A DNA stretch of 64,000 nt. Origin: Panax quinquefolius (Eukaryota; Streptophyta; Magnoliopsida; Apiales; Araliaceae). Of this stretch, positions 1,758 through 44,130 are shown one piece after another. Location of the stretch: the NCBI GenBank assembly GCA_020205615.1, contig CM035166.1, positions 78,950,679 to 79,014,678 on the forward strand, read 5' to 3'. Numbering within the stretch: the first letter of the stretch is position 1; each line of letters starts with the position of its first letter. A program made the position numbers and the translations under genes. The notes beneath the pieces are model-generated. The model did no database searches. It saw nothing but the letters and a program-made list of their open reading frames with translations, and had not been told where the DNA came from.

Positions 1758-2114
1758 GTCGCCCCTGTTGTTAAGGGTGACAAATTTGGCTCATATTAAT
1801 GTTCTAAGAATCAACTTGAACGTGATCAAATGAATCTTATCCCTCTATGCTTCTGTGGTTGGGAGTCTTATGTATGCTCAAGTTTTTACACGTCCAGATA
1901 TATCGTATGTAATTGGCATGCTTGGACGTTATCAGTCAAATCTAGGTTTGGATCATTGGAAAGCAGCCAAAAAGGTTTTACGCTACTTACAAGTTACCAA
2001 GAATTTTATGCTTACATTCAGAAAAACAGATAACCTTGAAGTTGTTGGTTATTCTGATTCTGATTTTGCTAACTGTAAAAACGAGAAGAAATCTACATCA
2101 AGGTACATCTTTAT
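1758..2114 (+). pseudogene. Ty1/copia pol fragment (end of RT / start of RNase H)
   Basis: A decayed copia polyprotein fragment. The readable segments are typical of copia RT/RNase H: a VVKGDKFG-like stretch at about 1766-1792, VGSLMYAQVFTRPDISYVIG from 1858, then LGRYQSN, LDHWKAAKKVLRYLQ and SDSDFAN. It ends at KSTSRYIFI, where family A LTR sequence begins. The fragment is cut on the left by the family D LTR and on the right by the family A LTR at 2115. The next residues of the copia protein (MLSGGPISWRS) are found on the minus strand from 37985, next to the other family A LTR. The frame is interrupted before 1855. It is a retroelement relic, not a host gene. Confidence 0.85.
2110..2114. repeat. 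TSD half TTTAT of a family A insertion
   Basis: TTTAT lies immediately left of the TG start of the family A LTR. The sequence right of this LTR (AGTTA, 4559-4563) does not match it. The partner is ATAAA at 37984-37988, the reverse complement of TTTAT, beside the inverted family A LTR. Confidence 0.85.
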
Positions 2115-4558
2115 TGAAAAACCCCAACTTTTTGAATAGAGATGAATTTTCTATAAATATTATTTTTAAATATTATGGAGTGAAATTGATATAATATAGT
2201 TGTGGGTAATAGTTATAAATTTTGCAAAATACGCAAGTTGTTATATAATATTCGATTGGTCGGGGAATATTCGTTTTAACAGGGAATATTCGTACAACGG
2301 CACAATCATTGGTGGACCCCACAACGGAATTATTGTCGGATTGAGAAAACGACAAAAATACTTTATAAAAATAAGGGCGGAAGTTTTACAGATTAATCTG
2401 TTGAAACACTGGTGTTAAAAAATACGAGAATACGCGTGGTTGCGTAGTAAGAGTAATACGCGGTATTAATTATTGATGCTTACGTGATAAGTCACTCAAT
2501 TTTATTGGTATTATTAATGTAATAATACGTAAAAATCTTTTATATAAAAATGTAATACTTTTATAAAGTTATTCTATAAATAGAATATATTATATTCTAT
2601 TATGCATAGTGTTGCATAGTGTCTGCATAGTATTTTGCATAGTAAAATCTTTTTATATAAAACAAAATACTTTTATAAAGTTATCTGTTTTATTAGACAA
2701 TAATTAGAATATATTATATTTTATTATGCATAGTGTTTGCATAGTGCCTGCATAGTGTTTGCATAGTAAAATCTTTTATAAAGTTATTCGTTTTATTAGA
2801 TTATAAATAGAATATATTATATTTTATTTAAAAGATTTTGCTTTAAATATGGACCGTCAGATTAAAGTAGATTAACGGGACCGTTCATGAGTTAATTACT
2901 ATCTTGATCCATTTTTCTATAATAGAAGCTCATTCCTTCATTATTTTCTTACTTAATTCATTTGAAACTAGAGAGATAAACTATAGAGAAAGAAGAAAGT
3001 ATTCGCTACTTCACTACTTATATATCCGATTACTCTTCTTCTTAAGGTAGGGAATATTATTTGTTGTACTCAGTAAAAGGTGTTATTCTTTTGTATTCAT
3101 GAAGAGAACTTACGTTATTTCATTCTTTATTATTCTCTTTGGAATAACCAAAGATATCTGTGACTACCCTATACTTGGTGACATTCTTCTAATATTCCGT
3201 CTTTTACTATTACATTGGAATATCCTATCTCATACATGCTTTTTTCTGTGGGACCGATTCCGTCTTTACTATACATTGGAATATCACATGCATGCTTTTA
3301 CGCGGACTGATTAAAATCTTTATTATTTTGTTGGAATATCATGTACATGCATTTTTCCGGACCGATTACATCTTATTAGTATTACGATGGAATAACTTTG
3401 TCATCACAAGTACCCATGCATGGTGATTTACATTGTTATTCCATTCTTTATTATTCTGTTGGAACATCACCTGCCGGCTTGCAAATTTCACCGACACGGT
3501 TCCGTTATTTAGTATTCTATTGGAATAACATGTCTATGCGAAGTACCGCATGCATGGTGATTTCTTTTATTATTCCATTCTTTATTATACTCAGTTGGTT
3601 AAAGTTTTGACTTCTATACTCCATGAAATTAGTGGAATATCCTTGATAATTGCGCTTCATCCAGTATCTTTTCATAGAAATATTCTTCTGCGCATTCTTG
3701 AATTTTACTCTACAAAGCAGTATCATGTTGACAATTTGGACGTTATTGGTTCTTGGAAAAATTAATTCTTGAACTTGTTTTATTGAATTCTTATATCATT
3801 GTCATCATCCTCATATTTATATTTTTTGAAAGTCATATATGTATTTTGTAGTGCATAGATGGACTTGGTATGATTATGACCGAGGATTATTGATTGTAAT
3901 CATGACCGTAATGTTACAAATGATGTGGTAAAAGTCCTCATTGGCCCGTAGTGCATGGATAATTGTGGTCGTGATACTAAAGAATATCCTTGACCGTAGT
4001 GCAGGGGTGATTGGATGATGTGAATTATTTATTAAGCTGAGTCCCAGTGATAAAAGTGATAAAAAAAACCTTTTAAATCATAAAAGATAGTAGATTTTAT
4101 TCTCTACTTGACTCTTCTAATGGATTGCTTGTTCCGCTTGATTAAACTTGATAGTTATTATATTTTATCGTTTAACATCTTTGTTGAAGGCTAACGATAA
4201 ATTATTCTCGCATTATCTTAGTCATAATATTTTTTCTTGGGCTAGTTGAGCTCACCCTTTCTTTCTTTTGTTCTCTTGTGAAATGACAATGTAGTGGGAC
4301 TAGTCTGGGAAGCAGTGATGGTCCTAGATGGTGCATTAGTAGTTCTCACTATTTTGTGAAATAGTGTGATAATAATTGTAATGAGGACTCCTTTTGAGTT
4401 TGTATACTCTAGTAGACAATATTTGTATTCAAACTCACACGACCTATGTTTTGTCGTATTTTACACATAATCGTTGTATAATTAAGTTGTATTTGAATCG
4501 TACCATGTATTTGGCGACTCAAGATGGGTGATGTATACCTAATTTTGGGGGCGTCACA
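2115..4558 (+). mobile_element. Solo LTR, family A (plus copy), inversion-border copy 1
   Basis: A 2444-bp LTR with ends TGAAAAACCCC and GGGGGCGTCACA. The first part holds AT-rich repeats with GCATAGT motifs (about 2580-2790) and a TATA-like CTATAATAG at 2917-2925. The middle (about 3099-3600) is a run of imperfect modules built on TTATTATTCTGTTGGAATA. The last part contains CCGTAGTGCATGGAT motifs and ends like the other copies at 8152-10657 and 37989-40493. No primer-binding site or coding region follows. The two flanks do not form a TSD, which is unusual for an intact LTR and is explained by the proposed inversion. ORFs inside it are chance. Confidence 0.85.
2580..2790 (+). repeat. GCATAGT-rich repeat block inside family A LTR
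   Basis: The units GCATAGTGTTTGCATAGT and AAAATCTTTTATATAAAA recur several times between AT-rich TATTCTATAAATAGAATATA segments. The same block is present in the other family A copies, for example minus strand around 5270-5470, 9940-10110 and 39880-40080. Confidence 0.7.
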
Positions 4559-5634
4559 AGTTATTCCCAATGAATAATAAATAATGGAACCAGTCCCAGC
4601 ATAAACGCATGCATGCGAGGATATTAAGCGTAATAATAAATAATGGAACCAGTCCGGTAAGCAGAAACGCACGTATGTGATATTATTACGTAATAATAAA
4701 TAATGAAACCAGTCCGTCAGAAAAACACGACACAAGATAATCCGACGGAATAATAAATAACGGAATATTAGAAGAATTTCACCATGTATGCAAGACTTAA
4801 GATAAACAAAGTTATTCCAACATAATAATAAAGAATGGAATAATGAAGAAGAATTTCACCAAGTATAGGGTAGATCACAGATATCAAAAGTTATTCCAAT
4901 GTAATAATAAATAATAATAATATCCTTTACGAGTACGACAATTATATCCCTACCTTAAAAAGAAAAGTATTCGACCGGTAGGGTGGGAATATACCGAAGA
5001 AAACTTCAGACTACGCCAAAGCTTTCTTAAACTATAAAGAAATACGCCAAGATTATAGAAGAAGAACTCTCTATAGTTTCTCTCTAGAGTTTCAAGAATT
5101 CGTAAGAAATAATGAAGGAATGATCTTCTATTTATAGAAAAATGGATCGTATAGTAACTAACTCATGAACTATCTGAGATTGATTTATTTTAATCGACGG
5201 ACCATATTTAAAGCAAAATCTTTTAAATAAAATATAATATATTCTATTTATAATCTAATAAAATGAATAACTTTATAAAAGATTTTTACTATGCAAACAC
5301 TATGTAGGTAATCATAAAACACTATGCATAATAAAATATAATATATTCTATTTATAGAATAACTTTTTAAAAGTATTACATTTTTATATAAAAAGATTTT
5401 ACAATGCAAAACACTACGCAGTATACACTACGCAACACTACGCATAATAGAATATAATATATTCTATTTATAGAATAACTTTATAAAAGTATTATATTTT
5501 ATTACATTAATAATACCAATAAAACAAAACTTAGTGACTTATCACATAAGCATCAATAATCAATACCGTGCTATTTACCAAAATAGAGAAAAAAAAATTG
5601 AATACTTTTATTTCATAAAATTCGGGGTCTCACA
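4559..5634 (-). mobile_element. 5' part of LTR A' (minus), split by the inversion
   Basis: On the minus strand it starts TGTGAGACCCCGAATTTTAT at 5634 and is cut at 4559, where the plus-strand family A LTR ends. The first 40 bp resemble family B; the rest, with GCATAGT-type repeats, resembles family A. Its continuation is at 40494-43236 on the plus strand. It sits inside family B sequence: AATAA at 5635-5639 is the reverse complement of TTATT, which follows the A' end at 43237-43241. The 4559-4563 AGTTA is the TSD half of the family A copy that had inserted into A'. Confidence 0.75.
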
Positions 5635-6651
5635 AATAATATATTTTTCTTAAACTTCCTACACACCCCAATTTAGTTCAAACATCAGCCACACCTCAAC
5701 AAAAACCACCAAAAATGTTTTTCTCAAATAAATCATTTAAAACTTCAAAAAAATCAATTATTCCGGAACTTCAATAATTCATAATAAATAGCCCTTTTAT
5801 CAGAAAAATTTGAATCTTATGTCCTTCAATATGAAATTCAATTCTCTACAACTTTGTAAGTTTAAGTTTTTCCAAATTCCAAACAAAAATTGACCGAAAT
5901 CCACATACGAACGATTTTACAGACTATAATATATCAAATAATGACAATCACAATAATGACAATCAGACCGTTCCTAGGAAAGAAGGGGCTTTCCAATAAA
6001 GATTTCTCCTTACTGGCGCGCAATTAGGTGACCAAACCTCTCCTTAGACAGAACTTTCTAGACATTGTCAATAATGTTATCTATTAATATTATTAAAATA
6101 ATATGAATTATTGATCTGATAATGGGAAATACTGTGTAGTGACAATTATTAAAACAACAATAATATAAAATATCAACGTAGCAATTTTTGAATCAATAAA
6201 ATAAAATACTGAACAGTAATTACTGTAACAATTATTGAGTTGCGACTTCTTACGTAAGAATCAATAATTCAAAAATATTGTGCAATATCGTAATATCTTT
6301 GTGTAACATCGCAGATTATTTTACTTTACCCACCGTGTATTCCAATGTTGTTAATTGTGAACGATTACGCCAAGTTATTTATAAAAACTTAAATTTGTCA
6401 TTTTCTTCATCCGATGGTTATTCTATTATGGGGCCCATAAATGGTCGCTACTGGCCGCATTTAATATTCCCGACAACAAGAATATTCCACGACCAAACGA
6501 ATATTCCCCGACAACAATGAATATTTTATAACCACTTGCTTATTTTAAAAAATTTGCACATTTCACCCATAACTTTAAACTTTTATCAATTTAACCATTT
6601 ACTAAATAGAAAAATTGAATACTTTTATTTCATAAAATTCGGGGTCTTACA
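5635..6651 (-). mobile_element. 5' LTR of family B element, first part (minus)
   Basis: On the minus strand it starts TGTAAGACCCCGAATTTTAT at 6651, as does the complete family B LTR at 49010. Similarity to 49010-50296 continues to 5635, where A' is inserted. The rest of this LTR is at 43237-45738 and 48513-48676 on the plus strand. The flank TCTAT (6652-6656) is the reverse complement of ATAGA, which follows the 3' end of the family B element at 52974-52978. Confidence 0.8.
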
Positions 6652-6656
6652 TCTAT
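6652..6656. repeat. TSD half of family B element (ATAGA, minus)
   Basis: TCTAT directly after the B start; its reverse complement ATAGA is found at 52974-52978, next to the other end of the same element more than 46 kb away. Confidence 0.8.
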
Positions 6657-6983
6657 GCCGTTCGTTTTTCTATAAAAACAATAAACAACTGTCAGATTGC
6701 TATCAATTTTTGTGTAATAATTCAACTCGATTAGATAAATCAAGTGCAAAATGTTAATTTTATTTATAACATATAAAATGGAGAGAAAAGATAGAAAATA
6801 AAATCTAAAAATGTATTAAAACATTTTTAACCATTCTTTTTACACTATTTGTAGCATTGTTCTTAATATTAGATTTAAAAAATATATATATATATAGTGA
6901 GATTTATATCAATGAAAATAATTATAGTATTTGTTAGTAACCTTTAAAGGAAATTATATATATATTTATATGAAGAAATAATA
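6657..6983. other. Intergenic, AT-rich, no gene seen
   Basis: Probably the original host DNA flanking the family B insertion. It has a short (TA)n run near 6885. I see no coding or RNA feature. Confidence 0.5.
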
Positions 6984-8025
6984 TGTCAAGGCTAGTACTT
7001 GGTACTATGTCCTTAAGACAATTATGCCTTTCATATGGTGCTCAGAGTTGCTAGCACTTGTCTCCCAGGATACAATGACTCCGTATACCTTAGCAGCACT
7101 ACAAAAGGTATACACAACGAACCAAAACTGAAAGCTCTAACTCTCTCTCTTTTAGAACTATAAAAATGATGAATATAAAATACTAAAATGACTATTAATG
7201 TTAATTGCTTATGTGAATTGAAATGAGTAAAAATGGTTGGCCCCTCCTATCTATTTATAGGAGGGTTAGTAACCCTTCGGATGGGTGTCTAACCCTTTGG
7301 AAGGGCATGAGATGCCACTGAAAAGGCATATATGACATCCATTAGTCAAGACGACGTAGTTTTGATCATATACAGTATAGGCGCGTCCATTCAGACATAT
7401 AAAACGACGTAGTTTCAGTATTAACAGAACCAAAACTACGTAGTTTTAGTTTAGTAGAAAAGGCGAGACCAAAACGACGTAGTTTTGGGCCGCCCGTTCA
7501 GACTTATACCCTTTCAGCAAATACCGCTTCTCAAAATGACACAGTTTTAATAAATACTGCTCTTCAAAACAACACAGTTTTGATAAAAAGAATTAAATAA
7601 ATAAATTTTAATTAAAATATTTAAATAAATTTTGTCTAAAAAATTATATACAGGACCCAGACCCACGTGCCAAAGCGGCTGGACGGCGGCGCGCGTGTGG
7701 GTTCGAACCTAACATTAGCTAGATCATCTCCCTTCCACATAAGTGGGGTGCCCCTTGGGGCCCAAACCCAAGAGCACTTTCTTTGTATATAAACATATAG
7801 AATATTTAATTCTTAGTCTATGTGGGACTTGATTTTTCCCAGATGTATTTATTATCTTTTATCATTTCCAAGTGTGCTCTTTGAGAGTTAATATCTCATT
7901 CATTACTTCATGAATTTGAGCTTCCAAATACTTAATTTAATCTACCCATAGAATAGAATACATTAATATATAGAATCATTAAAATTAATTAATGATACCC
8001 ATTAAATTCGGCTCAAATTCCAACA
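6984..8025 (-). mobile_element. Probable Ty1/copia LTR (minus)
   Basis: On the minus strand it starts TGTTGGAATTTGAGCC at 8025 and could end TTGACA at 6984, giving an LTR of about 1.04 kb. A TATAAATAG box lies about two thirds of the way in (plus 7250-7260), and a pyrimidine-rich leader follows. The five bases beyond the ends (TAATA-type and CTACT) do not form a TSD, and no PBS or PPT is seen next to it. It is an old solo LTR or a fragment, and the boundaries are uncertain. It contains the ACGACGTAGT motif cluster at 7350-7585. Confidence 0.5.
7350..7585. repeat. Cluster of AAAACGACGTAGTTTT-type palindromes
   Basis: Near-palindromic 16-mers of the type AAAACGACGTAGTTTT occur at about 7350, 7401, 7433 and 7471. 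Two degenerate copies (AAAATGACACAGTTTT and AAAACAACACAGTTTT) are at about 7534 and 7567. Related motifs with ACGACGTCGT are at 54523 and 55059. The ACGT core is the bZIP-type core, but any binding is only a guess. Confidence 0.6.
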
Positions 8026-8146
8026 CTACTTTAGATGTATAATTAAGAAAAAAGGTAAAAAGAAATACATTAATAATTGTAGTTAGAAAGTAAGTTATCC
8101 CCTTCCCCGCCTAGACTCCGCCCCCTAGTTCAGGATAAATTATTGT

Positions 8147-8151
8147 ACTAC
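8147..8151. repeat. TSD ACTAC, left copy
   Basis: Identical to 10658-10662 on the other side of the solo LTR. Confidence 0.9.
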
Positions 8152-10657
8152 TGTGACGCCCCCAAAATTAGGTATACATCATCCATCTTGAGTCACCAGA
8201 TACATGGTACAGAATTCAAATACAACTTAATAATACAACTATCGTGTACAATATGACAAAACATAAACTGTGAGTTTGAATACAAATATTGTCTACTAGA
8301 GATTATACAAACTCAAAAGGAGTCCTCATTACAATTATTATCACACTATTTCACAGAATAGTGAGGACTATCTAGGACCATCACTGTTCCCGACTAAGTA
8401 GTCCCGGCCCACGTTCTCATTTTCTGAAGAGAACAATGAAAGAAAGGGTGAGCTCAACTAGCCCACTAAGAAATATTATGACTAAGATAATGCAGAATAA
8501 TTTATCGTTAGCCTTCAACAATGTTAAATTGATAAAATATAATAAATATCAAGTTTAATTGCAGCGGAACAAGCAATCCATTAAAAGAGTCAAGTAGAGA
8601 ATGAAATCTACTATCTTTTATGATTTAAAAAGTTTTTCATCACTTTTATCGCTGAGACTCAGCTCAATAAATAATCCACATCATTAAATCATCCCCGCAC
8701 TCATGTGCCAAGGATATTCTTTAAGTATCACGACCACTTAATTATCCATGCACTCACGGGCCAAAGATAATCGTGTTTTCATCAACAGTCCCGATCATGC
8801 CATAAAACAATTCATCTTTGGTCCCTTGGCAAGAGAATCCATAGCCATAATCATACCAAAAACCGTCCATCAATGTGTACTACGGCCAATGAGGACTTTT
8901 AATTTTCACATCATTTGTAACATTACGATCATGATTATACCGAATAATCCTCGGTCATAATCATACCAAGTCCATCTATGCTTCACAAAAGCCATGATGA
9001 CTTTCAACATAATATAAACATGAGGATGATGACAATGATATAAGAATTCAATTAAACAAGTTCAAGAATTAATTTGTCTAGGAACCAATAACGTCCAAAT
9101 TGTCAACATGATACTGCTTTGTAGAGTAAAATTCAAGAATGCTCAGAAGAATATTTCCATGAAAAGATACTAGATGAAGCGCAAATATCAAGGATATTCC
9201 ACTAATTTCATGGAGTATAGAAGTCAAAAATTTAATCAACTGAGTATAATACCGAATGGAATAACAAAAGATATCACCATACATGCGGTACTTCGCATAG
9301 ACGGTTATTTCAACAGAATAATAATAACGGAACCAGGTCAGGTGAAATTCACACCGACAGGATATTCCAACAAAATAATAAATGTGGAATAATAAATGAT
9401 GGAACCAAATCCCGATATAACATGAGCCAGGATATTCCACAAAATAATAAAGACGGAATAATAAAAATGGAACCAGTCCCCAGATATACATGATGAGGAT
9501 ATTAATACGTAATAATAAAGACGAGAATAATAGAAGAATGTCACCAAGTATAGGGTAGGCCAGCGTATCTGAGTTATTCCAATGAGAACAATAAAGAAAT
9601 GGAATAATGAAGTTCTCTTCTTGAATACAAAAGAATAATATCCCTTACAGTACAACAAATAATATCCCTTCACCGTAAAATAATACTTGATATAAGAGTA
9701 GTGAAGTAAGAGAAAACTTTTCTTCTATCTCTCTATAGTCTCTCTCTATAGTTTCTCTCTCTAGAGTTCAAATTGAATTCGTAAGAAAATAATGAAGGAA
9801 TGAGCTTCATTTATAGGAAAATGGAATGCATAGTAACTAATCCATGAACTATCCAGATTGATTTACTTTAATTTGATTTGGTTCATATTTAAAAAAAAAT
9901 GTTTTAAATAAAATATAATATATTCTATTTATATAAAAGATTTTTTACTATGCAAACCTTATACGCAAGACTATTATGCAAACACTATGTATAATAAAAT
10001 ATAATATATTATATTTATAGAATAACTTTAATAAAAGATTCATTTAATATAAAAAGACTTTACTATGCAAAACACTACGCATAATAGAATATAATATATT
10101 CTATTTATAGAATAACTTTAATAAAGTATTCATTTTATATAAAAGATGTTTCATTTTATTACGTTAATAATACTGAATAAAACAAAACTTTTAAATCAAC
10201 AATAATTGAATCAAATAATGTGAGATACTACGCAAAGAACTATTGTAGCAATAATTGAACAAAACCGGTGACTTCTCACATAAATATCAATAATCAATAC
10301 TGAGTGTGCTACTTGTCGCAACAACGCAGACATTCTTTACTTTTACTACCGAAAGTAGTTCAATAGTATCAACGGTTAAAACTTACCGTTATTTTCAATA
10401 AAATATTTTTGTCATTTTCTCAATCCAGATAATAATTACATTGTGGGTCCACCAATGATTGTATCTGCCGTCGCACGGATATTTTTTTCACACAAAGAAT
10501 ATTTCCTGACCAATCGAATATAATATGACAACTTGCATACTTTGCAAAATTTATAAATACTACCCACAACTATAACATTATATCAAATCCACACCATAAT
10601 ATAAAAAAAATATTTCGGGAAATTTAAATCTTTATTTATAAAATCTGGGGTCTCACA
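8152..10657 (-). mobile_element. Solo LTR, family A (minus), intact
   Basis: A 2506-bp LTR. On the minus strand it starts TGTGAGACCCCAGATTTTAT at 10657 and ends GGGGGCGTCACA at 8152. Both sides carry the perfect 5-bp TSD ACTAC (8147-8151 and 10658-10662), so this copy is a normal solo LTR produced by LTR-LTR recombination. It is the reference for what an undisturbed family A insertion looks like here. The 137-aa ORF on the minus strand at 9078-9491 lies in the modular repeat part and shows no protein family. Confidence 0.92.
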
Positions 10658-12217
10658 ACTACCCTTTATTTCAAAACTAGATATACAATTTAATTTTTGA
10701 GGTCAAACGACGACCTATTAAATTTTAAATTGATGTGAATTTATTTAATTTTAGTTAATACAATTATTATAATTGTATAGTGAATATATACAACAAAAAT
10801 TATTAGTCGTAAAATTTATTTTATTCAAAATTTTTATAAGTTATACTAATTTTAAAATTTAATATATAAATCATTTTATCTCAAAAATTAAATTATATCT
10901 CTAATTTTGGAATGAAAGTTTATGTTTAGAAATGTGATTATGACTGAAGGCATTCATGTGAATTTTAAATAAGAAATTACTTAAGCTACCAGCATTTCTA
11001 GAATATGACCTCCTGATTATTTGACTAATCCTTATTATATATAGGCTATAATATTGTTTGGCAGCTTTAAAGTTGTGTGATTAATTATTGATGATTGCTA
11101 TAATTAACTTTTTGTTTGTATTAAGGTCAATGAACACACTCTATATGTTGATGGGTCTTGAGCATTTGTGAGTGATCATTTGGACGGACTATCAATTATA
11201 AATAACACAGTTAGTGCCATCACTTTAAGTTTCTACAGCTGTTATACACCTGTGCTTGATCGAGTTTCCTCCACAATCAAATATTCTTTTCATTAAATAT
11301 ATTAGAAATTTTCAATTAATTATTAAACAAATGTATTAGAAATTTTAAAATCAAATAAGTTGGCTTTAATAGTATATTTTATATACTTTATTATGATAAT
11401 AATTGTGTCTATATATAATAAATTTAAAAATAATTTTTATTCTAAATATGATTAATTTGACCATAAAAATTAATTAAGATAAATAAAACTGGACAGAAAT
11501 AGTACAATATTTTATTAGTTAAGGGTTGCATAAATAAACTAAATAATCTCCGCGCACACAATAAAAAATAAAAAAAAATTGGCATCATATGGAAAATTCT
11601 TTAATATAATACTTCTAGTGCGTGTGTTTATAAAAGTTATAATTATAATTAAGCAATATCTAGTCGTGCTAAGTCTGTTATGGTCGATTTTATACAAATA
11701 TATTTTTTAATTTTTTCACGCGATCCCTCTCATATGAATAATGAACGAGTCTTATTCATATAAAAGAGACTAATATAAAAATATCAATTTTCTTTTCATA
11801 AGCAAGGTGGGCAATGTAGATGGGTAGCGTCCATGGACCGAATGTGTGCTCCTATTACGTACACGGTACATAGATTGTAACACAGGTAGAGAGAATCTTA
11901 ATTTTAATACTATTTAAAAAAATTTAACTTAAAATTAATTGGGTAGCTATGTTTGAAATATTGTAGAAATAAAGGTGTTAATGGAATAATTCATTCTCAA
12001 AATTGTGATCGGTTGTTCTATTGGAATGAAATGGATCATTCTTATTTTTATCAAAATTGTTAATTTTATGTTTTTTGGAGGAGTGTATGGAATTAATGAT
12101 TCATGTCAGCCATGAATAAAATGAATCATTTCATTTATTATTCCATTCCCTTCTCAATTTCATTCGTTTACCAATTTCATTCTTACACTTCAAATTGCAG
12201 AAGTGAAAAAATCCCTC
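10658..12217. other. Intergenic stretch with a GGAATGA-rich repeat near its end
   Basis: Very AT-rich and without coding potential in any frame. 10658-10662 is the second TSD copy of the neighbouring solo LTR. From about 11980 to 12190 there are GGAATAATTCATT and ATTCCATTC segments in inverted orientation, which could be an old MITE. I could not define clean ends. Confidence 0.4.
12213..12217. repeat. TSD CCCTC, left copy, of Tat element
   Basis: CCCTC directly before the LTR; identical to 23299-23303 after the other LTR. Confidence 0.95.
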
Positions 12218-12899
12218 TGTTAACGCCAAGATCTTTCGTCACGTCCCAATCACCTAAAACGTCCTGATCCTGCAACGTAAACACAATAAACACCACAAGC
12301 TTGACGGCGGTTCCGTCGGGGGATAACTCAGGCGTGAGAATCAGTATGTGAATTCACAAGGTTTTCGAAAACGGAGGCTATATCACCTAGTATATTGATA
12401 TCAAGAGATAATTAATTTTCTCCGTGAATATCGATTATAATTGAAGAAGTGTATGAGAGCGTCTTCTCTCTGGTGGAGACTTCCTCGCCAAGTTATACCT
12501 CCTTGCTTGAATTACCGTACACCCACTACTACCCGACACATTCCCTTTACCCGATGGGTTCTGCCATTGTATGTATGTAGTGTATCCATTGCTTTTTGGT
12601 CATTGCTTTTCCACCACCTACGTGGGTTATGATCCCATCCACATTAATGCATGGCGTGTTCTTTAGTCAACCGACATGCTTTTTTCATCATTACTGGTCA
12701 AAGATTATAGATATTTAAAATGCCTAAATGATTGATCCATTGACCAATCTTGCCTCTTATAAGTTTGAAATGAAAATAATATGATGATTGGGCTTAATGA
12801 TTTTCATAATTCAATAATAGAGGCCCAATAGAATAAAAATAATAAAAATAATAAGCCCAATATATTTGGCCCAAAGGGATAAAATATCACGACCCAACA
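12218..12899 (-). repeat. 3' LTR of Tat element
   Basis: 682 bp; on the minus strand TGTTGGGTCGTGATA to GGCGTTAACA. It is alignable over its full length with 22620-23298. A TATA-like CTTATAAGAGG lies near plus 12755. The 63-aa ORF at 12441-12632 is chance. Confidence 0.95.
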
Positions 12900-12912
12900 T
12901 TGCCCCCTAGTT
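12900..12912 (-). other. Polypurine tract of Tat element
   Basis: On the minus strand AACTAGGGGGCAA directly before the 3' LTR start TGTTGGG. This is the expected place and composition for plus-strand priming of reverse transcription. Confidence 0.8.
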
Positions 12913-13166
12913 TTTTGTTGAACAGAATGTTTAATAGAAAACTATAAACAATCCATGATATTTTACTGAGAATCAATAAATGACAAGATGTAATTAAAAA
13001 CGTACCCATTTATTGTCCATGAAATGAAATGAAAGGAAGTTAAGGGCCCAATTCAGAAAGACTCTATCCATTAAGTACCAGGACCCGAAACCGGACGCTT
13101 CTCATTCAAATTCCAAATTATTACTAGCATTTAATGCACCCGTCTTGAACACTGTGTAACCGTCAG

Positions 13167-13174
13167 TATAAAAG
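13167..13174 (+). promoter_or_regulatory. TATA box for the antisense ORF
   Basis: TATAAAAG about 100 bp before the ATG at 13270, followed by a CT-rich leader (TCTCTCTCTCTCTG, about 13240). It suggests that the antisense ORF has its own RNA polymerase II promoter, facing away from the 3' LTR. Confidence 0.6.
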
Positions 13175-13269
13175 GATAACTTTACCAAATTTGACAGTTT
13201 TACCTGTTCATTTGAAATTCGAGCGCCTTCTAAAATTTCTGATCTCTCTCTCTCTGCAAATCGTTACAA

Positions 13270-15722
13270 ATGGCTTCTCAAAACCCTGATCAAAGTTCTC
13301 CCATACTTGTAACACCCATCACTGTGGTTCCACCAAACCCTAATCTTCATGAGGGGACTTCAGGTACGAATCCCAAACAAAAAACCCAGAAAACCCCCTC
13401 TGACTATTATAGGAGTACAGAGCGATTCTCGCATGCCAATACTCCTTCTATCATAACTGAAGCTGAACTGAAGAGGGTTCGAACTCGGTTCCACATCCCA
13501 GATACTCATGCTGTCAGGGTACCTCGTTCTGGAGAGAAGATGTATCAATGGCACAAGGATGGATCATTGTTCGGTGACTTTACCGGGAGAAGGGGTTCGT
13601 TTCCCTCTTCACGTCTTCATAGTGACCCTACTGGGGTTTTTGGGTGTAGGATTTTCACAACTGGTGCCGAACTCCTACATCCACATTCTGGCCTTCGTGG
13701 CCTTCTGCCATGAATTGGGCGTCGAGCCCTCCTTGGACTTCTTCTTCACTGTCTACAAGATAGTTCAATCCAGGAGAAGGGGTTCAAGGCCCTCAAAGAA
13801 ACATTCTCCAAGTCCGGAGAAAAATTTGACAGACGTCATTTGGTGAACACCCTTCAAGCAATAGGGGATGGCACGAGAAATGGTTCTTCGTCAAAGGCCA
13901 CGAAATCTCTTCTCTTCCGAATCGGGCAACCGGACGAAAAAATATCTCACGACTTGGAGATGTTTCAAGAACGAGAAGTGGAGATGATGGAGCTATTTGA
14001 CAACTTCCCAAGGAGGGTGGAAATACGGACTCCTCTCAAGCGAGCATGGTTATATGACCATAAACGTAAGTACCAGCTTATTTCATATATATGTATATTT
14101 TTTGAAAATATTCCATAAAATATAATTATAACATGGAATTGTTTGATTTGGCAAGATCTTTGATCGAATGAGAGCTCTGTAGAAATAAAAGAACTTGAAG
14201 ATTTCTTGTCTGGGAAGTCTTCGGAAGCAATTGAGGCTACACCCACCGAAGCTACCCCCGAAGTATATCCAACACCAGAAATTCATACGGATGAATTTCA
14301 AACAGAGGAAACAGAGGCCGAAGAGGTTCTCATACCAGAAGAGACCCTTCACCCTCGACAAAAGAGGAGAGCTACCAGAAAACCAAGGTCAGTCCCTCTA
14401 GTAAATCCTCCCGAACCCACACCAGAAACAGAACCAACCCCCAAAACCATTCCTCGATCAGGCGGCTTACTTGATCGTCCTGATCGAAGGAGTATACTTA
14501 GGACCAAAAAACTAAAAACAAAAATAACCCCATTAACCGCCGAAGAGCTCAGGGTTCCTCAGTCTTCGGTCATTCCTCCCTTCGTGCCCCCTGTAGAAAT
14601 ACAGATCGAAGAGGATGGTGACCAGGACGAAGGGATTCCGACGTTATCCAGGAAGAGGAAACGTACCCCTGAGAGTCATCCAAGTTCTGCATCCGCTTCA
14701 ACACCCAAAGAACCTACTTCAAACAAATCTCCCGTAATCGAAACCATTCACGCAGACCCTACACCTCCTGAACAGCCCACTCTTTCCCCTGAAAGGCCGA
14801 GACCCTCTCCCGAACGGCCTGGTCCTTCAGGTCAAGGTTATCATGCCGAAGCTGTGGGATCTCCGACCTTATGGCCCAGGTTCAACGCCAACTTTCCTTT
14901 CGACCTCTTTGGAGCTTTCGTTCGACACACTGACGACCACCGATTCAGTGATCACACGGACGGAAATCTTCTCGACGAGGGTATGAGTTATTTGGCCAAG
15001 GTAAATAACAATCACTCCTTCCTCTACATTTCTATTTTCCTTCGAGCATTTTATACGTTTAACTTGATTGTCTTGAAAATATGCAGGCTAATGCTGTCTT
15101 CGGACGACTGCGTCCGAGACACATAAATGGAGAGGCCGAGGAAGATTTCATGCGCCAAGAGATAAACATGCTGAAATCGACCTTGGATCGAGAAAGAGCT
15201 GGTCAAGAAGATGCTTTTCATACCATCAATGGTCTTCAAATAGAATTGGATCGAGCCAAGATGGATTTGAAGACATCTGATGACGAACTAAGGGCTACAA
15301 GAGATGAGTTGGCTACGTCCGAAGCCAGCCAACAAAATCTGACCAACCTGAATGCTGGCTTGGTTGAAGAGAACTTACTTCTGAAGGCGAAAAATGAGGA
15401 GTTCTCTTCAGCCAACCGAAGCCTAGTCCTACAACTTGGTGAAGCTGAGACGAAAATTCAGGATGAAGCTCGAAGGCATAAGGCCAAGCGTCACAAGCTT
15501 CGCCATAAGATAAAGGACCTTGAGGGACGAGGCCCTGTTCTGACTGAAGAGCTTCGGAAGCAGATTCAGGCAGAGTATAGGGACTCGGATGAAATTAATG
15601 TCGAGATCATGAAGGTCTATTCGGAGGGATATGAGGACTGTCGGGAACGAGGGAAAGAGAAGCTATCAGCTGCTCAGTTGGACCCGGCACTGCTCAATTC
15701 CGATGATGAAGGCGGTGCCTGA
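13270..15722 (+). pseudogene. Antisense ORF of Tat element (gypsy-type Transposase_28-like protein), three exons
   Basis: Opposite in strand to gag-pol. Exon 1 is 13270-14065, intron 1 14066-14182 (GTAAGT...AG), exon 2 14183-15000, intron 2 15001-15086 (GTAAAT...GCAG), exon 3 15087-15722. Exon 1 carries a segment such as RFPLHVFIVTLLGFLGVGF and FCHELGVEPSLDFFF, which I recognise as the 'putative gypsy type transposon' domain (Pfam Transposase_28). Exon 2 is rich in Pro, Glu and Thr with basic patches (KRKR). Exon 3 is a long acidic and basic coiled coil. The conserved segments of exon 1 lie in different frames: changes are needed near 13590, 13775 and around 13865-13950, so the copy is broken or the sequence has indels. 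Such antisense ORFs are known in Tat elements, but their role is not established. Introns phase 1 and phase 0 keep the frame. Confidence 0.8.
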
Positions 15723-16110
15723 ATATATATCATGTTTTTGATTCTATGTAAATATTTAACTTTTTATGTTCATGTAATTAATCGACTTAAATGAAATGAA
15801 CATTTTATGCTTATTGATAAATCTTTAACTGTCTTGAATATAACTTCTGTCCCGATCAGTTTCTTGTCAATAATTTAGTATCAATAAGATGAACTATTGA
15901 ATTAGATATGGCATATAACAGTTAACTCATGCAATGAAGTGAGTTGAATTTTACGGACAGGATTCAAGTTAACTGAACTAATGAACTGAACTCAACACTT
16001 AAACAAAATAAATAACTTATACTCATCGGTATCGAAGAGTGAGATCAATCATACGTGAAGTAAATTTGGGACGACAAGCAGATAAGTACCAAGACATAAG
16101 GATTAATAAC
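15723..16110. other. Spacer between antisense ORF and tandem array
   Basis: AT-rich, with no ORF. It probably holds the 3' UTR of the antisense transcript; no clear AATAAA signal was seen. Confidence 0.4.
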
Positions 16111-16594: not shown

Positions 16595-16689
16595 ACCAGT
16601 GATAATTTGTGAAAAAGTGATCTTTTATTGATATCAAACAGTTGTGTACAGACTTCCGATAAACTGACTTAAACTTCATTGAAAATACT

Positions 16690-22618: not shown

Positions 22619-22619
22619 A

Positions 22620-26580: not shown

Positions 26581-26664
26581 TTATAATTTGAGCTTAGATT
26601 GAGTTTTAACATTTATTTAATGAAAAAAACTAATTTCCCAATGAAGCTAATTCAACAACTCCAA

Positions 26665-27463: not shown

Positions 27464-27579
27464 ATTATTTATTTTATTTTCGTTTGATAAAAATATTTTA
27501 TGTAATGGGTATTTAGATATTGCTGGGTAAAGAGAGGAGTGTCAAGTGTGTATATTTATTATATGGAAATTTCTGTAGA

Positions 27580-29264: not shown

Positions 29265-29334
29265 GTGGTGCTATAAGTTTGGTTGAATCAGTTGCATTAT
29301 TTATCTACCCTTTAGATTTTTGACCCTCATTATC

Positions 29335-32300: not shown

Positions 32301-35292
32301 TACTTAATTTTGGTGATCCTCTTCTGGAAATTGATGAAACAAGTTGACCTAGTACCTCCAAGTATGAAAACTTTGCAGTTTGGTCGGTTTCTGAAAAATG
32401 GTAAGGGTATTTGTGCATAATATACCAGGAAGTTTATGGATACTTGAATTTCAGTGGCATAAACATATGATATTATTGGCTAGCTGCCTCATCTGCATCA
32501 GACTTTTATAGTGAACAAATACTACGTATAACTCGTGATCGTAAACCACTTCTCTAAATATAGAATAGGACCGCATATCACTTCCCAGCAAAGGATCCGC
32601 CATTACAAACAGGGACGAAACCAGGATTTGATCTTGCGAGGGGCCAAAATTTTTTTTAATAACATAATATATATTTATCATTAAAAAGTAAAGTTCCACC
32701 ATTACAAAACATATTTTTACTAAAACAAAGATAATATAGTAATAAATTTGTTTTACCAAAGACAACAAAACATAACAAAAAAAGTCTTTTAGAACATAGT
32801 ATGTGATTTTCCCATGATTCTAAAACAAAAAATAAAAAAATTCAACTTTAGAATATACATAACATTTTTTATTGTGTATGCGTATTGGTGCTAAGATATT
32901 CACTCATTAGTATCAACCGTGCTAGAGCTCTTAAACACTTAGAAAGCCTAGTAGACTAGTACAGAGGTAATAATATCTCATGGTATAATTAATAGTGTAA
33001 AATAGGTCCTTTTTTTACGGTTAATTATACTTTAAAAGGTACAATTTTTCATTAATAATTGTAGTTTAAGGGAGAAATTTGTTAATTAATTAAATTTATG
33101 AATGAAAACGTCACACAGTCACAAAAAAAGTTTTGTATTTTAGTACTCTTCTAGTTTTGAAAATGGAAACTGCAAAAAGATGACATCAAAACACAAATGT
33201 TAAGCTAATCCATATATACACCTTAGAAATAGTCAGACATCAAAACCTTAACCATTGCAAATTGATTTATAAAAATATGTATGTATATGTCTGTGGATGA
33301 CTAACCGAGATCGGAAGTATCTGAGGGAAGAATATTGGGCCAGGTCTTGAACAATAAAATATATTATTGAACAAGTGAGCCTAAAAAATTGTTCACATCA
33401 CTTGGCAAAAAAAATATTAAAAAAAAAATCAGATCTTGGGGGGGGGCCATGGCCCCCTGCAGCCCTTAGTCAGTTTCGTCCCTGAGTACAAATATAATGA
33501 CAGAACTAATGTTCATTTATAGTACCTGTTACTTTGTCCTCTCCATATTCGCATAGAATTAGATGGATTTGATGCTCACCTTCATTATCCATTTTGTTGA
33601 TCAAGCCTTATGAACTAGCGGCTTGTTAAAGTACGTACTTAACTTGCAGTTGTCTAATAAAAGTACTATAGAAAGATTACAAAGTCCCTCTTGTTTGTTT
33701 GAATGGTGAATAATTATATTCCCAAGTTTCAAATTTCTGGTGTACATTTTACACGGCTTTTGAATAATTATTGTCAACTCTTCTCGCTTTTGTTGGTGGC
33801 TAGAAGATTGTGAGTTTCACTTTCCCCTTTTAACTTTCTCTACATGTATAAACGCAGGATTTTATTTATTGGGAAGGGTAATAGCTGCAACATCATGCGT
33901 CACTTTGGCTGCATCATTGGCCGCAAGATTGGGTTCAACTCCTATGGCGGCATTTCAGATTTGCTTACAGGTCTGGATGACATCGTCTCTTCTAGCTGAT
34001 GGTTTGGCTGTTGCGGGACAGGTAACTACTTCATGTTGATAAATTAAAAATCATTAAGTAATTCAAGAAAATACTTGATCAATTCATATTGTGTGTTCTC
34101 TTCATCCCACTCGTTTAGGCCATCCTTGCTTGTGCATTTGCTGAGAAGGACTATCAGAAGGCAACAACTACTGCCTCCCGAGTATTACAGGTTTGCTTCT
34201 CTAATATTTCCACGTGCCATTTGCTTTATATTCTGAAAAATTATTTGATGACATCGCGATCATATAGCAACCTCCTTCTGTAAAAATTACTTGATGACAT
34301 CGCGATCATATAGCAACCTCCTTGTGTAAAAATTATTTGATGACATCATGATCATATAGCAACCTCCTTCTGTTAGGATAATGCTAAGGGTCTCAAATTT
34401 ATTGTCTCAAATGATGTGACATTGAATAAAATAAATTGTTTTTTATGTCAGCCAATCACAAGAGATACACTCAACCAATGTAACGATACCACATTATTTT
34501 CGACAAAAAATTTGAGACCTCTAGCATTACCCTTCTGTTTATCTTTCTGATATGCTTTTGCATTTGATGCTGTTTCCAAAATTTCATGCTCAGTTGAGAA
34601 TTCTCTTTTGCAGATGGCATTTGTACTGGGTTTAGGTCTCACTCTTGTTGTAGGACTTGGGTTGCAGTTTGGCTCTGTAGTCTTTTCGAATGACAAAAAT
34701 GTTCTTTGCCTCATAAGTATAGGCGTCCCGGTAATTCTCTTTTTCCAAGAACATGAAAGACATTCCTTCTAAATCCTTAATATTTCACTTTTTATAATGA
34801 ATTTTTGCAATATCAGTTTGTAGCAGCTACACAGCCAATCAATTCCTTAGCCTTTGTTTTCGATGGTGTTAACTTTGGAGCTTCTGATTTTGCTTATTCT
34901 GCATACTCTATGGTATGTTGGCAAATCATTCATATATATTGTACACTTACCTCAATTTACTCCCATCTTTATTGTTTATTTATATATTCGTATTTCTTCA
35001 GGTTCTAGTAGCTATAGTGAGCATTGCATCCCTGTTTGTTCTCTCTAAAAGTAGTGGTTTTGTTGGAATATGGCTTGCTTTGACCATTTATATGAGTCTC
35101 CGCACATTTGCAGGCGTCTGGAGGTAAATTTCTTTCATTTAGAAGGATTTTGCACTTTCTGTAAATATTATGCCCTGAAGCTGATTGAACTGAGAATTCA
35201 TGCATGTTTTGACTAAAAATTAATATATTGTTTGCAGAATGGGGACTGGAACTGGACCCTGGCGCTTTCTCAGGGGCCGATTGTTAACATAA
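29335..35292 (+). CDS. MATE family transporter, FRD3/DTX42-type (citrate transporter-like), 13 coding exons, 558 aa
   Basis: A membrane antiporter of the multidrug and toxic compound extrusion family, in the plant clade that contains Arabidopsis FRD3 and DTX42, which release citrate for iron loading of xylem or aluminium tolerance. Exons: 29335-29411, 29817-29938, 30333-30608, 30783-31030, 31207-31342, 32108-32198, 32300-32400, 33858-34021, 34119-34190, 34614-34730, 34817-34912, 35002-35123, 35238-35292. All introns are GT-AG and the 1677-nt frame is open. Clade marks: MPLFIFFRDARLVFKMDALG at residues 16-35, then FPAALALAADPVASLIDTAF, GRLGAVEIAAVGVSIAIFNQ, TSFVAEENT, RSLGAPAVLLSLAMQGVFRG, LDPILIF, QVWMTSSLLADGLAVAGQ, FVFDGVNFGASDFAYSA and a C terminus RFLRGRLLT. 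A hydrophilic loop of about 110 residues (roughly 90-205) between the second and third membrane segments is long even for this clade and has a 17-residue repeat. The start follows the family's usual N terminus. Substrate and tissue are inferred only from the clade. Confidence 0.93.
30847..30938 (+). repeat. 51-bp in-frame tandem repeat in MATE exon 4
   Basis: The unit starting ACTTAAAAGTGAGAAG at 30847 recurs at 30898, a period of 51 bp or 17 codons. The protein reads LKSEKQVIPSA then LKSEKPHIPSA (residues 181-191 and 198-208). The second copy joins the third membrane segment as in family members, so the first is the extra copy. Confidence 0.9.
32610..33484. mobile_element. hAT-like non-autonomous element in MATE intron 7, 875 bp
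   Basis: Terminal inverted repeats CAGGGACGAAAC and GTTTCGTCCCTG. The flanks ATTACAAA (32602-32609) and AGTACAAA (33485-33492) form an 8-bp TSD with one mismatch, as expected for hAT. Near the right end there is a GC-rich GGGGCCATGGCCCCC palindrome, and the left has GAGGGGCC. No transposase frame is seen. It makes intron 7 the longest intron of the gene (1457 bp). Confidence 0.85.
34234..34372 (+). repeat. 46-bp tandem repeat, 3 copies, MATE intron 9
   Basis: The unit contains TTGATGACATCGCGATCATA followed by TAGCAACCTCCTTCTG. TTGATG starts at 34245, 34291 and 34337, an exact 46-bp period. The copies differ at a few bases. Confidence 0.92.
34376..34532. mobile_element. MITE, 157 bp, MATE intron 9
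   Basis: The left end GGATAATGCTAAGGGTCTCA pairs with the right end, which reads GGGTAATGCTAGAGGTCTCA on the minus strand, an inverted repeat of about 30 bp. The flanks TTCTGTTA (34368-34375) and TTCTGTTT (34533-34540) are an 8-bp TSD with one mismatch, pointing to a hAT-type MITE. It inserted directly at the end of the 46-bp array. Confidence 0.8.
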
Positions 35293-36828: not shown

Positions 36829-37188
36829 TGTTTATATGAATTGAGAGAAGACATCTTATATGTATCACGTTTCTGCTGTACTTAAGAGTGAATGTTTTCA
36901 ATTGTCTCTCTCAATCTTATGATGGATATATAGGTGTGTATAAAGTTCTTGAGACGACAATTGTGACCAAACACTAACGGTTTTATTTATAGAATAGCTA
37001 AGAGTCATAATCGTCCATCAAGATTATGAAACCTCATGACTCATTATGCCAAATACTATTAGAAATATTATTTATAAGACACATAATTAATTACCAAACC
37101 CATAAAAAAGTAATTAAATTAATACAATATGTAAGCCCAATAATTACATAAATATTAGATGCCGCATAAAGAATAAAATATTCTAACA
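36829..37188 (-). mobile_element. 3' LTR of the split copia element (minus)
   Basis: On the minus strand it starts TGTTAGAATATTTTATTC at 37188, directly after the PPT CAACTGGAAGAA (37189-37200). A TATAAATAAA motif lies near plus 36980-36990. The left end at 36829 (minus ...ATAAACA) is an estimate. It belongs with the RNase H fragment at 37640-37988. Confidence 0.6.
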
Positions 37189-37200
37189 TTCTTCCAGTTG
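37189..37200 (-). other. Polypurine tract of the split copia element
   Basis: On the minus strand CAACTGGAAGAA, similar to the usual copia AAGTGGGAGAA tract, placed between the pol end and the LTR. Confidence 0.65.
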
Positions 37201-37639
37201 GCCGAAATACTATTTATATACAAAACATAACACTTCCAATCATTAATTTGGCCAAGTATTATTTAATGTCTACATCTTGTTCAAATAAAAACACCAATAC
37301 AAATTAATACAATCTTTGTGTCACTATTAACACAAGATCCCCATTATAAGTAACAGAATTAGTACTTTTATTAGAACGAAGATTAACATTAAACATAACA
37401 GGTATGAATAGAGTTACATAAGTGGTAATAGATTAAACTCATTCATATGGTCCAAAACATAACTGTTTGCTTACAAGTTCTCAAGTGTGTACAATAAAGA
37501 GAATAGCAAATCATAAACATAATGTGAAGTTCAAAACAACGAGCTCAAAAAATATTGGCTTACATCAAAATAACTCACTAATTAAGACTACCAATTAAAC
37601 TCATTCCGGTAACATGTTCTAAAAAGAGTTTGGGTGGTA

Positions 37640-37988
37640 AGCCTTTCGTAAGTCAATCCGCTAACATATCATGCGTACTAATATACTTAATGACAACGCT
37701 TTGATCTTCAACTCTTTCCCTGACAAATACGTATTTAGTGTCGAGGTATAGTCCAGCACCACTCGAACTGGTACTGTTGGAAAAAGTAACAACATAATTA
37801 TTATCACAAAATACTTTCAATGACCTTGAAATGAAATATACAACCTTAAGTTTTGAAATAAGATTCCTCAATAATACGACGTGACAAGTAGCATGATAAC
37901 AAGCCACATATTCTTCCATCATCGTAGAAATGATAGTTAACTCCTGCTTATGACTTCTCCACGAAATAGGGCCTCCTGAAAGCATAAA
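37640..37988 (-). pseudogene. Ty1/copia RNase H, C-terminal part
   Basis: Minus-strand frame from 37985: MLSGGPISWRS, HKQELTIISTMMEEYVA, then a FCDN motif and HDMLADLT-like end, typical for copia RNase H. This is the direct continuation of the fragment at 1758-2114 on the plus strand: the last residues there (YIFI) and the first here meet at the TTTAT duplication. Both pieces are in inverted orientation 36 kb apart. The fragment is a relic of a retrotransposon. Confidence 0.88.
37984..37988. repeat. TSD half ATAAA (TTTAT on minus) of a family A insertion
   Basis: Next to the end of the inverted family A LTR; it pairs with TTTAT at 2110-2114, not with its own right flank TAACC (40494-40498). 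Confidence 0.85.
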
Positions 37989-40493
37989 TGTGACGCCCCC
38001 AAAATTAGGTATACATCACCCATCTTGAGTAGCCAAATACATGGTACAGAATTCAAATACAACTTAATTATACAACAGTCGTGTAAAATACGACAAAACA
38101 TAGGCTGTGAGTTTGAATACAAATATTGTCTACTAGAGAGTATACAAACTCAAAATGAGTCCTCATTACAATTATTATCACACTATTTCACAGAATAGTG
38201 AGGACTACTAATGCACCATCTAGGACCATCACTCCGTTCCCCGACTAGTCCCAGCTACGTTCTCATTTCCTGAAGAGAACAGTGAAAGAAAGGGTGAGCT
38301 CAACTAGCCCAGTAAGAAATATTATGACTAAGATAATGCAGAATAAATTATCATTAGCCTTTAAACAATGGTTAAAGCGATACAATATAACAAACATCAA
38401 GTTTTACTGCAGTGGAACAAGCAATCCATTAAAAGAGTCTAGTAGAGAATAAAATCTACTATCTTTTATGATTTAAAAGGTTTTTCATGACTTTTATTAC
38501 TGGGACTCAGCTTAATAAATAATTCACATCATCGAATCACCCCTGCACTACGGCCAAGGTTATTCTTTAGTATCACGACCACAATTATCCATGCACTACG
38601 GGCCAAGAATATTTGTGTATTCATTAATGGTTATGATCATGCCAACAACTGTCCATCAATGCACTACGGGCCAATGAGGACTTTAACCACATCATTTGTA
38701 ACATTACGGCCATGATTACAATCGAATAATCCTCGGTCATAATCATACCAAGTCCATCTATGCACTCATGTGCCACAGATGACTTTCAAAAAATATAAAT
38801 ATGAGGATGATGACAATGATATAAGAATTCAATAAAACAAGTTCAAGAATTAATTTTTCCAAGAACCAATAACGCCCAAATTGTCAACATGATCATTGCT
38901 TTGTAGAGTAAAATTCAAGAATGCTCGGAAGAATATTTCCATGAAAAGATATCTTTGGATGAAGCGCAAATATCAAGGATATTCCACTAATTTCATGGAG
39001 TATAGAAGTCAAAGTTTTAATCAATCGAGTATAATAAAGAATGGAATAACAAAAGAAATTACCATGCATGCGGTACTTTGCATATGTAAAGTTATTCCAA
39101 CATAATACTAAATAACGGAACGAGTCGGATTTAAATTACATGCAGACAAGCTGTGATGTTCCAAATGAATAATAAAGAATGGAATAACAATGTAAATCAC
39201 CATGCATACGGTGACTTCAGATGAGCGAGTTATTCCAATGGAATACTAATAAGGATTGAATCAGTCGGCGTAAAATGCATGAACGAGGATATTCCAATGT
39301 AATAATAATAAAGATGGAACCGAGGTACAGTAAAACGCATGCAGACGTGATATTTGACCGAGAATAATAAAGACTTTGAATCAGTCCAAAGATAAAAGCG
39401 TCTGATGAGGATATTCCAATGAGAATAGAAAAGGCGGAATAATAGAAGAATGTCACCAAGCATGTGGTAGCCAGCGTATCTGAGTTATTCCAAATGAATA
39501 ATAAAGAATGGAATAACATAAGTTCTCTTCATGAATACAAAAGAATAACACCCCTTACGAAAGTACAACAAATAATATTCCTTACCTTAAGAAGAAGAAA
39601 GTAATTGGATATATAAGTAGTGAAGTAGCATAATACTTTCTTCTTTCTCTTTATAGTTTATCTCTCAGAGTTTCAAATTGAATTCGTAAGAAAATAATGA
39701 AAGAATGAGCTTCTATTTATAGAAAAATGGATTTGCGATAGTAACTAACTCATGAGCGGTCCAGATTGATTTACTTTAATCTGACTATCCATATTTAAAG
39801 TAAAATCTTTTAAATAAAATATAATATATTCTATTTATAATCTAATAAAGCGAATAACTTTATAAAAGATTTTACTATGCAAATCTTATACGCAGCACTT
39901 ATGCAAACACTATGCATAATAAAATATAATATATTCTAATTATTATCTAATAAAATGGATAACTTTATAAAAGTATTACATTTTATATAAAAAGATTTTA
40001 CTATGCAAAACACTATGCAACACTATGCATAATAGAATAACTTTATAAAAGTATTACATTTTATATAAAAAGATTTTTCGTATTATTACATTAATAATAC
40101 CAACAAAAGCGAGTGACTTATCACGTAAGCATCAATAATTAATACCGTAGTGCTACTATGCAACCACGCAGTATTCGTATTTTTTAACACCGTGTGTTTC
40201 AACAGATTAAGCAGTAAAAATTCTGCCGTTATTTTCATAAAGTATTTTTGTCATTTTCTCAATCAAACAATAATTCCATTGTGAGGTCTACTAATAATTG
40301 TCTTAGTTTATGCGAATATTCCCTGTGAAAACAAATATTTCCCGACCAATCGAATATTATATAACAACTTGCATACTTTGCAAAATTTATAAATATTACC
40401 CACAACTATAACATTATATCAATTTCACTCCATAATATTCAAAAATAATATTTATAGAAAATTCATCTTTATTCAAAAAGTTGGGGTTTTACA
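37989..40493 (-). mobile_element. Solo LTR, family A (minus), inversion-border copy 2
   Basis: A 2505-bp LTR. On the minus strand it starts TGTAAAACCCCAAC at 40493 and ends GGGGGCGTCACA at 37989. It is the closest match in the window to 2115-4558, in opposite orientation, and has the same GCATAGT block, modular middle part and TATA-like motif. Its flanks (ATAAA and TAACC) do not form a TSD. Together with 2115-4558 it bounds the proposed inversion. Confidence 0.87.
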
Positions 40494-43236: not shown

Positions 43237-44130
43237 TTATTATTTATTAAATTTTCTGCTTTGGTGTTCCAAGTATTTTCCTATAAATAGGATGCTTAGG
43301 TTAGAATTGAAAATCACACCAGAAACTGAAGCTTTCTCTCTCTATAATATCGAGCATATTTTTATGAGTATTTAAATATCTTGAGTGTCGTTATACGGTG
43401 CAAGTTCGTTCAGCGTTATATCCGACATTCCAATCAGAAGTGCTGCTCTTTTGAGATAAGGGATATTGTCATTATTATGGTAAGGGATAGTAAGGGATTG
43501 TAAGGGTTATTATGTTTTTCAGTTTCGTAATTTTTCTGATTCTCAAAAATTCTGGAAAAATTTGAAATGATAATTTGATGAGTTTTCTAGATTGTGTCCA
43601 AAAGTGACAATTTTTGGATATATAGATTAGGAGTTATGAATTTTATGGAAAAAGACTATTTTAAAAGTAAACCCTTATAACTCCTTGTGGTTAACTCCAA
43701 AATTGGTGAAATTGCTATTGGGAGTACATGTATATAATAGCAGTATACTCTGTAAATTTCAGAATTTTTGGACAAAAGTACAATTTATGATAAATGTCTA
43801 AATATTCGGCAGTTTTGGCCATATGAAAAATAGTAAATGAATTTTAAAAATTCTGATAAAAATATATGTTCAATATGGGACTCTATTCTGCTAAATCCTA
43901 GAAAAGAAAATATTTTGAGACTGATTTGGTATTTTTCATGAAAATGGACTAGTTATGAGTAAATGAATTAAATATGTTATATGAAGTAAGAAAATTGGAA
44001 AAATAGGATTTTATGGCTTGAGAATCCTAGGTATATGCAGATTTTTGATGAAGGTTTTGGTTATTGGCGATGAAATCTTATGAGTTTGGCATTTTAGGAT
44101 AATTAAATGCATTAATTAGTAAAGTGTAAT

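Follow-up and report, generated by a model that had tools for sequence, protein, structure and literature searches.

Does the present order of a gene-bearing segment in Panax quinquefolius reflect an inversion between two LTRs of the same family? An earlier note, made from the letters alone, had proposed that about 36 kb was turned around between two inverted family A solo LTRs, leaving an order that was either derived or a mis-assembly. Events of this kind between retroelements, termed retrotransposon recombination-mediated inversion (RRMI), have been described at 49 loci between human and chimpanzee (PMC2603318). We analysed the whole 64,000-nt stretch (C16:78950679-79014678), here called the window, and searched the 3.565-Gb genome of 821 contigs with parts of it. 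The proposed breakpoints and the segment between them are as follows.

2115-4558, plus strand: family A solo LTR A1, left breakpoint, with TG...CA ends and mismatched flanks TTTAT/AGTTA
37989-40493, minus strand: family A solo LTR A2, right breakpoint, with mismatched flanks ATAAA/TAACC
4559-37988 (33,430 bp), minus strand: interior of the proposed inversion, carrying A3, the Tat element, the MATE gene and the right copia piece

In the present order, the flanks of A1 and of A2 each match at only one of five positions. When the flanks were exchanged, the A1 site read TTTAT/TTTAT (5/5) and the A2 site TAACT/TAACC (4/5), which confirmed the coordinates and 5-mers from which the pairing had been proposed. 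TSDs that mismatch in place yet match on exchange are a defining feature of RRMI, and this pattern was found here. Restoring the order also paired TTATT/TTATT at the LTR named A' and ATAGA/ATAGA at the element named B (both 5/5). Random 5-mer pairs from the window were identical in 0.2% of cases and agreed at four or more positions in 2.5%, and the joint chance of the four TSD pairings is ~2e-10 if they are independent. As in-place controls, three of four other elements had perfect TSDs: A3 (ACTAC), the Tat element (CCCTC) and the LTR at 45739-48507 (TTGTC). The fourth, X at 55396-63970, was flanked by CTGTC/TGGCC (2/5). X is an LTR element whose LTRs are 97% identical at aligned sites, and its flank mismatch is possibly another trace of recombination.

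A1 and A2 were recovered as inverted copies when the window was compared with itself. They are 2.4-2.5 kb long and share 88.9% aligned identity, or 11% divergence, with a longest exact match of 96 nt at 3741-3836. Each runs from TG to CA, and they align with one another in one piece. Both are single LTRs without an internal region, as solo LTRs should be, and the 5-nt TSD of a solo LTR appeared solely upon flank exchange (5/5 and 4/5), so that in the restored order A1 alone and A2 alone are each flanked by a paired TSD. As in RRMI, the two breakpoints thus carry kindred elements that face opposite ways, A1 (plus) and A2 (minus). The 284 kb around the locus contains zero N. Among the matches listed in the genome, the best relatives were 92% identical for the 5' part of A1, 95% for the 3' part of A2 and 89% for the 5' part of A2.

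Both breakpoints interrupt older elements, and the first of these is a copia element that lies in two pieces. The labels copia and Tat are names given in the earlier note.

1754-2114, plus strand: left piece, copia RNase H region, with the TTTAT TSD at its end
36829-37988, minus strand: right piece of the same copia element, ending in ATAAA, the reverse complement of TTTAT

Joining the two pieces with the TSD counted once gave a single open frame (...KSTSRYIF/MLSGGPISWRS..., with the slash at the join), which we take to resemble RNase H; joining the flanks of A1 in the present state gave no copia read-through. The claim that turning the interval back repairs copia therefore stood, in that the frame is open, while the proposed spelling YIFI proved to be a reading from before the join, the joined form being YIF/MLSGG. 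A Pfam scan of ten translated stretches, two with a match and eight without, found no match in the copia piece at 37656-38015. In a genome search with 36829-37988, 40 of 954 candidates were scored; this listed 39 copies beyond the window's own, with two short fragments excluded, and 27 of the 39 were fetched. In all 27 fetched copies, the sequence that stops at 37988 in the window runs straight into the reverse complement of the one that stops at 2114, the two sharing exactly 5 nt, the TSD. Because these copies join in this way, the exchanged flanks are the true neighbours in an uninterrupted copia element.

The left copia piece also borders a 0.86-kb repeat found at 903-1764 and, with 93% identity, at -6935 to -6088 relative to the window. 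The outer copy adjoins a family A LTR at -6936, and the window copy ends near 1754, the point where copia homology stops.

The second breakpoint lies within a nest in which A2 is inside A' and A' is inside B.

4559-5634, minus strand: 5' piece of LTR A', A-like, cut by the A2 insertion; TSD TTATT shared with 43237-43241
5635-6651, minus strand: element B, 5' piece of its 5' LTR, which includes the A' TSD (5635-5639) and makes an ungapped join with 43237 onward
6652-6656, minus strand: 5' TSD of element B, ATAGA, a lone ATAGA at the empty site on C7
40494-43236, plus strand: 3' piece of LTR A'
43237-48676, plus strand: remainder of the B 5' LTR, which includes the A' TSD (43237-43241) and is interrupted by the solo LTR at 45739-48507
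48677-49009, plus strand: internal region of element B, 333 nt
49010-52973, plus strand: 3' LTR of element B, 3,964 nt
52974-52978, plus strand: 3' TSD of element B, ATAGA, where the right flank, collinear on C7, begins

The B LTR starts with TGTAAGACC on the minus strand at 6651, and the internal region opens with TTTGGTATCAGAGC, presumably a primer site of the initiator-methionine tRNA type. Element B looks non-autonomous. Aligned to the uninterrupted LTR at 50133-50477, the restored B join was ungapped over 345 nt at 97.7% identity, and keeping the TSD twice introduced a 5-nt gap. Together with the exact ATAGA pair (6652-6656 and 52974-52978), this bears out the proposal that B regains its TSD and an intact junction. 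Of the four joins, that of A' is the least secure, as it lies in repetitive sequence and not every alignment favours the restored form: against 3498-3588 in A1 it was ungapped at 80.2% with the TSD once and had a 5-nt gap with the TSD twice, whereas against 4915-4778 there were 13 gap positions when the TSD was counted once and 8 when it was counted twice. The insertion of A' in family B was upheld by the exact TTATT pair; its description as a plain family A LTR was not, since A' is a 3.8-kb mosaic whose first 1.1 kb is A-like, followed by an alternation of B-like and A-like sequence and a B-like end.

The interior carries the following features.

8152-10657, minus strand: control solo LTR A3, with an intact ACTAC TSD; absent on C7
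12218-23298, no strand given: LTR element labelled Tat in the earlier note, with TSD CCCTC and an LTR pair at 12218-12899 and 22620-23298
29785-35124, plus strand: candidate MATE transporter exons, carried by the proposed inversion

Pfam placed a reverse transcriptase domain inside the Tat element at 19076-19618 on the minus strand and a MatE match at 31207-31452; it gave no match for four further candidate MATE exons. In the right flank, a tRNA-Ile with anticodon TAT was predicted at 53774-53848 on the minus strand.

Of 8 candidates scored for the MATE region at 29700-31450, one besides the window's own was near-identical, at C7:98869453-98871196 on the minus strand with 99% identity. We read C7 in two parts, from 98860001 up to 98872697 and from 98878000 upward, which lie 5.3 kb apart inside the block. 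C7:98863490-98863849 corresponds to window 1754-2114 (plus) and C7:98863845-98864754 to window 37988-37043 (minus); these overlap by 5 nt, a single TTTAT, and the copia element is uninterrupted. Pieces of window 35963-33553 and 33397-28189 come next, both minus, and in the second part there are pieces of 11901-10658, then 8151-8025 and 6932-6652, all minus. The A3 site, between the first two of these, is empty, with a 5-nt overlap. At C7:98880192 the B site is empty as well: window 6652 meets 52974 onward (plus) across just one ATAGA, and the right flank continues on the plus strand with window 52979-54191, 54190-54417 and 55179-55384, reaching 98882102. Thus, the interior at 4559-37988 is oriented opposite to the right flank on C7. 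An uninverted arrangement on a related chromosome, as expected for RRMI, was accordingly found on C7 in the two parts read. What we observed directly are the joins after swapping, the TSD pairings and, on C7, the order before the flip.

C7 lacks A1, A3 and B at these sites and therefore represents the earlier state. Because it keeps the order predicted by the TSDs with all three sites empty, the C16 order is, as far as the two assembled contigs tell, the derived one, the two differing in how the interior is oriented towards the right flank. This agrees with the first half of the earlier suggestion that the present order is derived or a mis-assembly, and together with the 27 of 27 fetched copia copies it supports the proposal of one inversion between inverted LTRs. 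The size of ~36 kb did not hold as given: the interior is 33.4 kb, and with the LTRs the flipped length would be 33.4-38.4 kb, depending on the crossover point.

The C7 copia copy was located by its position and lies outside the matches listed for copia. It is 91.4% identical to the window copy, and the other 27 copies are 89.3-92.6% identical, so that overall identity does not set it apart. Rare states shared by two copies averaged 0.46 over 406 pairs; the pair formed by the window and C7 has 5, more than any other. From position, orientation and these shared rare states, the two look like the same insertion. The C7 copy lacks about 1 kb of copia at the end nearest MATE. Elsewhere in the comparison, the repeat between 54417 and 55179 has no match at the C7 right flank, and ~1.1 kb at 6933-8024 is unmatched on C7 and is probably another insertion.

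These observations are best explained by a model in which two family A solo LTRs came to lie in opposite orientation on C16, one within copia and the other within A' nested in B. Homologous recombination between them would then have flipped the intervening 33.4 kb with A3, Tat and MATE, exchanged parts of A1 and A2 and thereby their TSDs, and left copia, A' and B each broken in two. The 96-nt identity at 3741-3836 would be a plausible crossover site, though conservation is general in that part of the LTR.

If a crossover took place, A1 and A2 should both be chimeric today. We counted sites at which >60% of 12 nearby copies side with A1 or with A2, and successive stretches of 2115-4558 gave A1:A2 counts of 18:11, 30:6, 23:31, 21:8, 8:9, 6:22 and 2:5. 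There is a shift from A1 to A2 along the LTR, with 2900-3350 running opposite, but the signal was lost on thinning clustered sites: the scan with the 12 nearby copies gave 0/2000 shuffles unthinned and 274, 290 and 500/2000 when thinned by 10, 20 and 40 nt. With 2900-3350 removed and 20-nt thinning, it gave 123/2000. Scans using A3 only gave 250/2000 shuffles (all sites) and 13/2000 (thinned) with one breakpoint, and 1/200 and 0/200 with two. Because the chimera signal fails thinning of clustered sites, we infer, rather than observe, that the crossover lay within the LTRs. Overall, a real inversion by recombination between the LTRs is very probably the right reading of the locus.

The sequence signature would be identical if the plant had the ancestral order and the assembler had switched from one LTR to the other. 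The draft P. quinquefolius assembly, reported as 3.57 Gb with a contig N50 of 0.87 Mb and an LTR assembly index of 7.99 (PMC8989883) and a scaffold N50 of 138.6 Mb (PMC8989883, PMC12549079), leaves room for such an error, and a later telomere-to-telomere assembly is described as showing many structural variants against it, inversions included (PMC12549079). However, the LTRs are merely 2.4-2.5 kb long and 11% different with no exact match beyond 96 nt, the draft, if it is the assembly analysed here, was built with Nanopore reads (PMC8989883), such reads usually span this length, and there is no N across 284 kb. We consider a mis-assembly unlikely; the LTR divergence, the ~2.5-kb length and the N-free 284 kb favour a real inversion, and on these grounds we infer that the event exists in the plant beyond the assembly.

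A real inversion could also have arisen by end joining or replication template switching, with the breaks landing in the LTRs by chance, and the loss of the chimera signal after thinning would fit that route. End joining at both breakpoints would be expected to lose or duplicate sequence, whereas each LTR extends from TG to CA and the two form a single alignment, as a crossover would predict; crossover is favoured, and the other route seems very improbable. Separate family A insertions in different copia or B-like copies could have produced the pattern with no inversion if the TSDs paired by chance, and these families are abundant, with 954 first-look candidates for copia and 7981 to 19114 for the family A pieces. 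Such an account would have to absorb the four TSD pairings, whose joint chance alone is so small, the 5-nt overlap seen in every one of the 27 fetched copies, and a MATE block that is turned round on C7; it is barely conceivable, and chance pairing without inversion is contradicted by the C7 order. Beyond a single recombination event, the LTR pair could form a reversible switch by which the 33-kb MATE segment flips both ways in the species. We regard this as very doubtful; if it were true, both orientations would be found in different plants or tissues, and the surroundings of the MATE gene would change with them.

In plants, solo LTRs without matching TSDs are known as traces of inter-element recombination. 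Those at this locus share the unmatched TSDs and differ in that both partners lie in one window, so that the exchange can be paired. In the published account of RRMI, same-type retroelements also lie in opposite orientation at both breakpoints, and TSDs that mismatch and match when exchanged likewise give the ancestral state (PMC2603318). Those elements are primate L1 and Alu, whereas these are plant solo LTRs, and here the nested elements supply additional broken joins; PCR confirmation belongs to the RRMI work (PMC2603318), while the present inversion is proposed from assembled sequence. The rice S1B locus, as described, has a ~45-kb inversion between inverted pectate lyase genes (PMC3053390). 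Both are plant loci of similar size with proposed inverted-repeat homologous recombination exchanging the flanks, but the rice repeats are genes rather than LTRs, and orientation there was compared between species rather than between contigs of one genome (PMC3053390). The event type and the TSD-exchange argument are thus already published, and the present locus is a further case, unusually well documented. If real, it would be a cleanly polarised plant example in which a pair of solo LTRs inverted a segment with a gene, nested insertions order the events and a second chromosome preserves the earlier state. Where paired solo LTRs have mismatched TSDs, a check against uninterrupted copies of the elements around them could expose inversions without an outgroup assembly, and the same check could flag inversion errors in draft genomes.

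The copia element is common to C16 and C7. Since C7 lacks A1, A3 and B, their insertion and the inversion that followed would have occurred on the C16 side, if there was no precise loss on C7. The pieces of the B LTRs differ by K2P distances of 0.0427, 0.0445 and 0.0937, or 1.6-3.6 My at a rate of 1.3e-8 (from PMC8989883). Between C16 and C7, K2P was 0.034-0.057 in intergenic sequence and 0.012-0.016 in the MATE region. The inversion would postdate B and go back at most, roughly, to the time when the two chromosomes split, which gives an upper bound only.

P. quinquefolius is described as tetraploid with 24 chromosomes in the haploid set (PMC8989883, PMC12549079), and each of the contigs C1-C24 carried matches beyond 30 Mb. 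Three family A searches, with the best 39 matches each besides the window's own, gave 117 matches, 8 of them on small contigs. Among these best-listed matches, 108 of the 109 on C1-C24 fell within one set of 12 contigs (C1, 10, 12, 14, 15, 16, 17, 19, 20, 21, 22 and 24), a set defined from the same match lists. C16 is inside this set and C7 outside it, and C7 is therefore most likely the homeologue of C16 in the other subgenome. The distribution of the best-listed matches suggests that family A is a subgenome-specific LTR family; the PgDel2 family is reported to mark half of the chromosomes in tetraploids (PMC5567358). Of the copia matches listed on C1-C24, 12 of 35 lay inside the 12-contig set.
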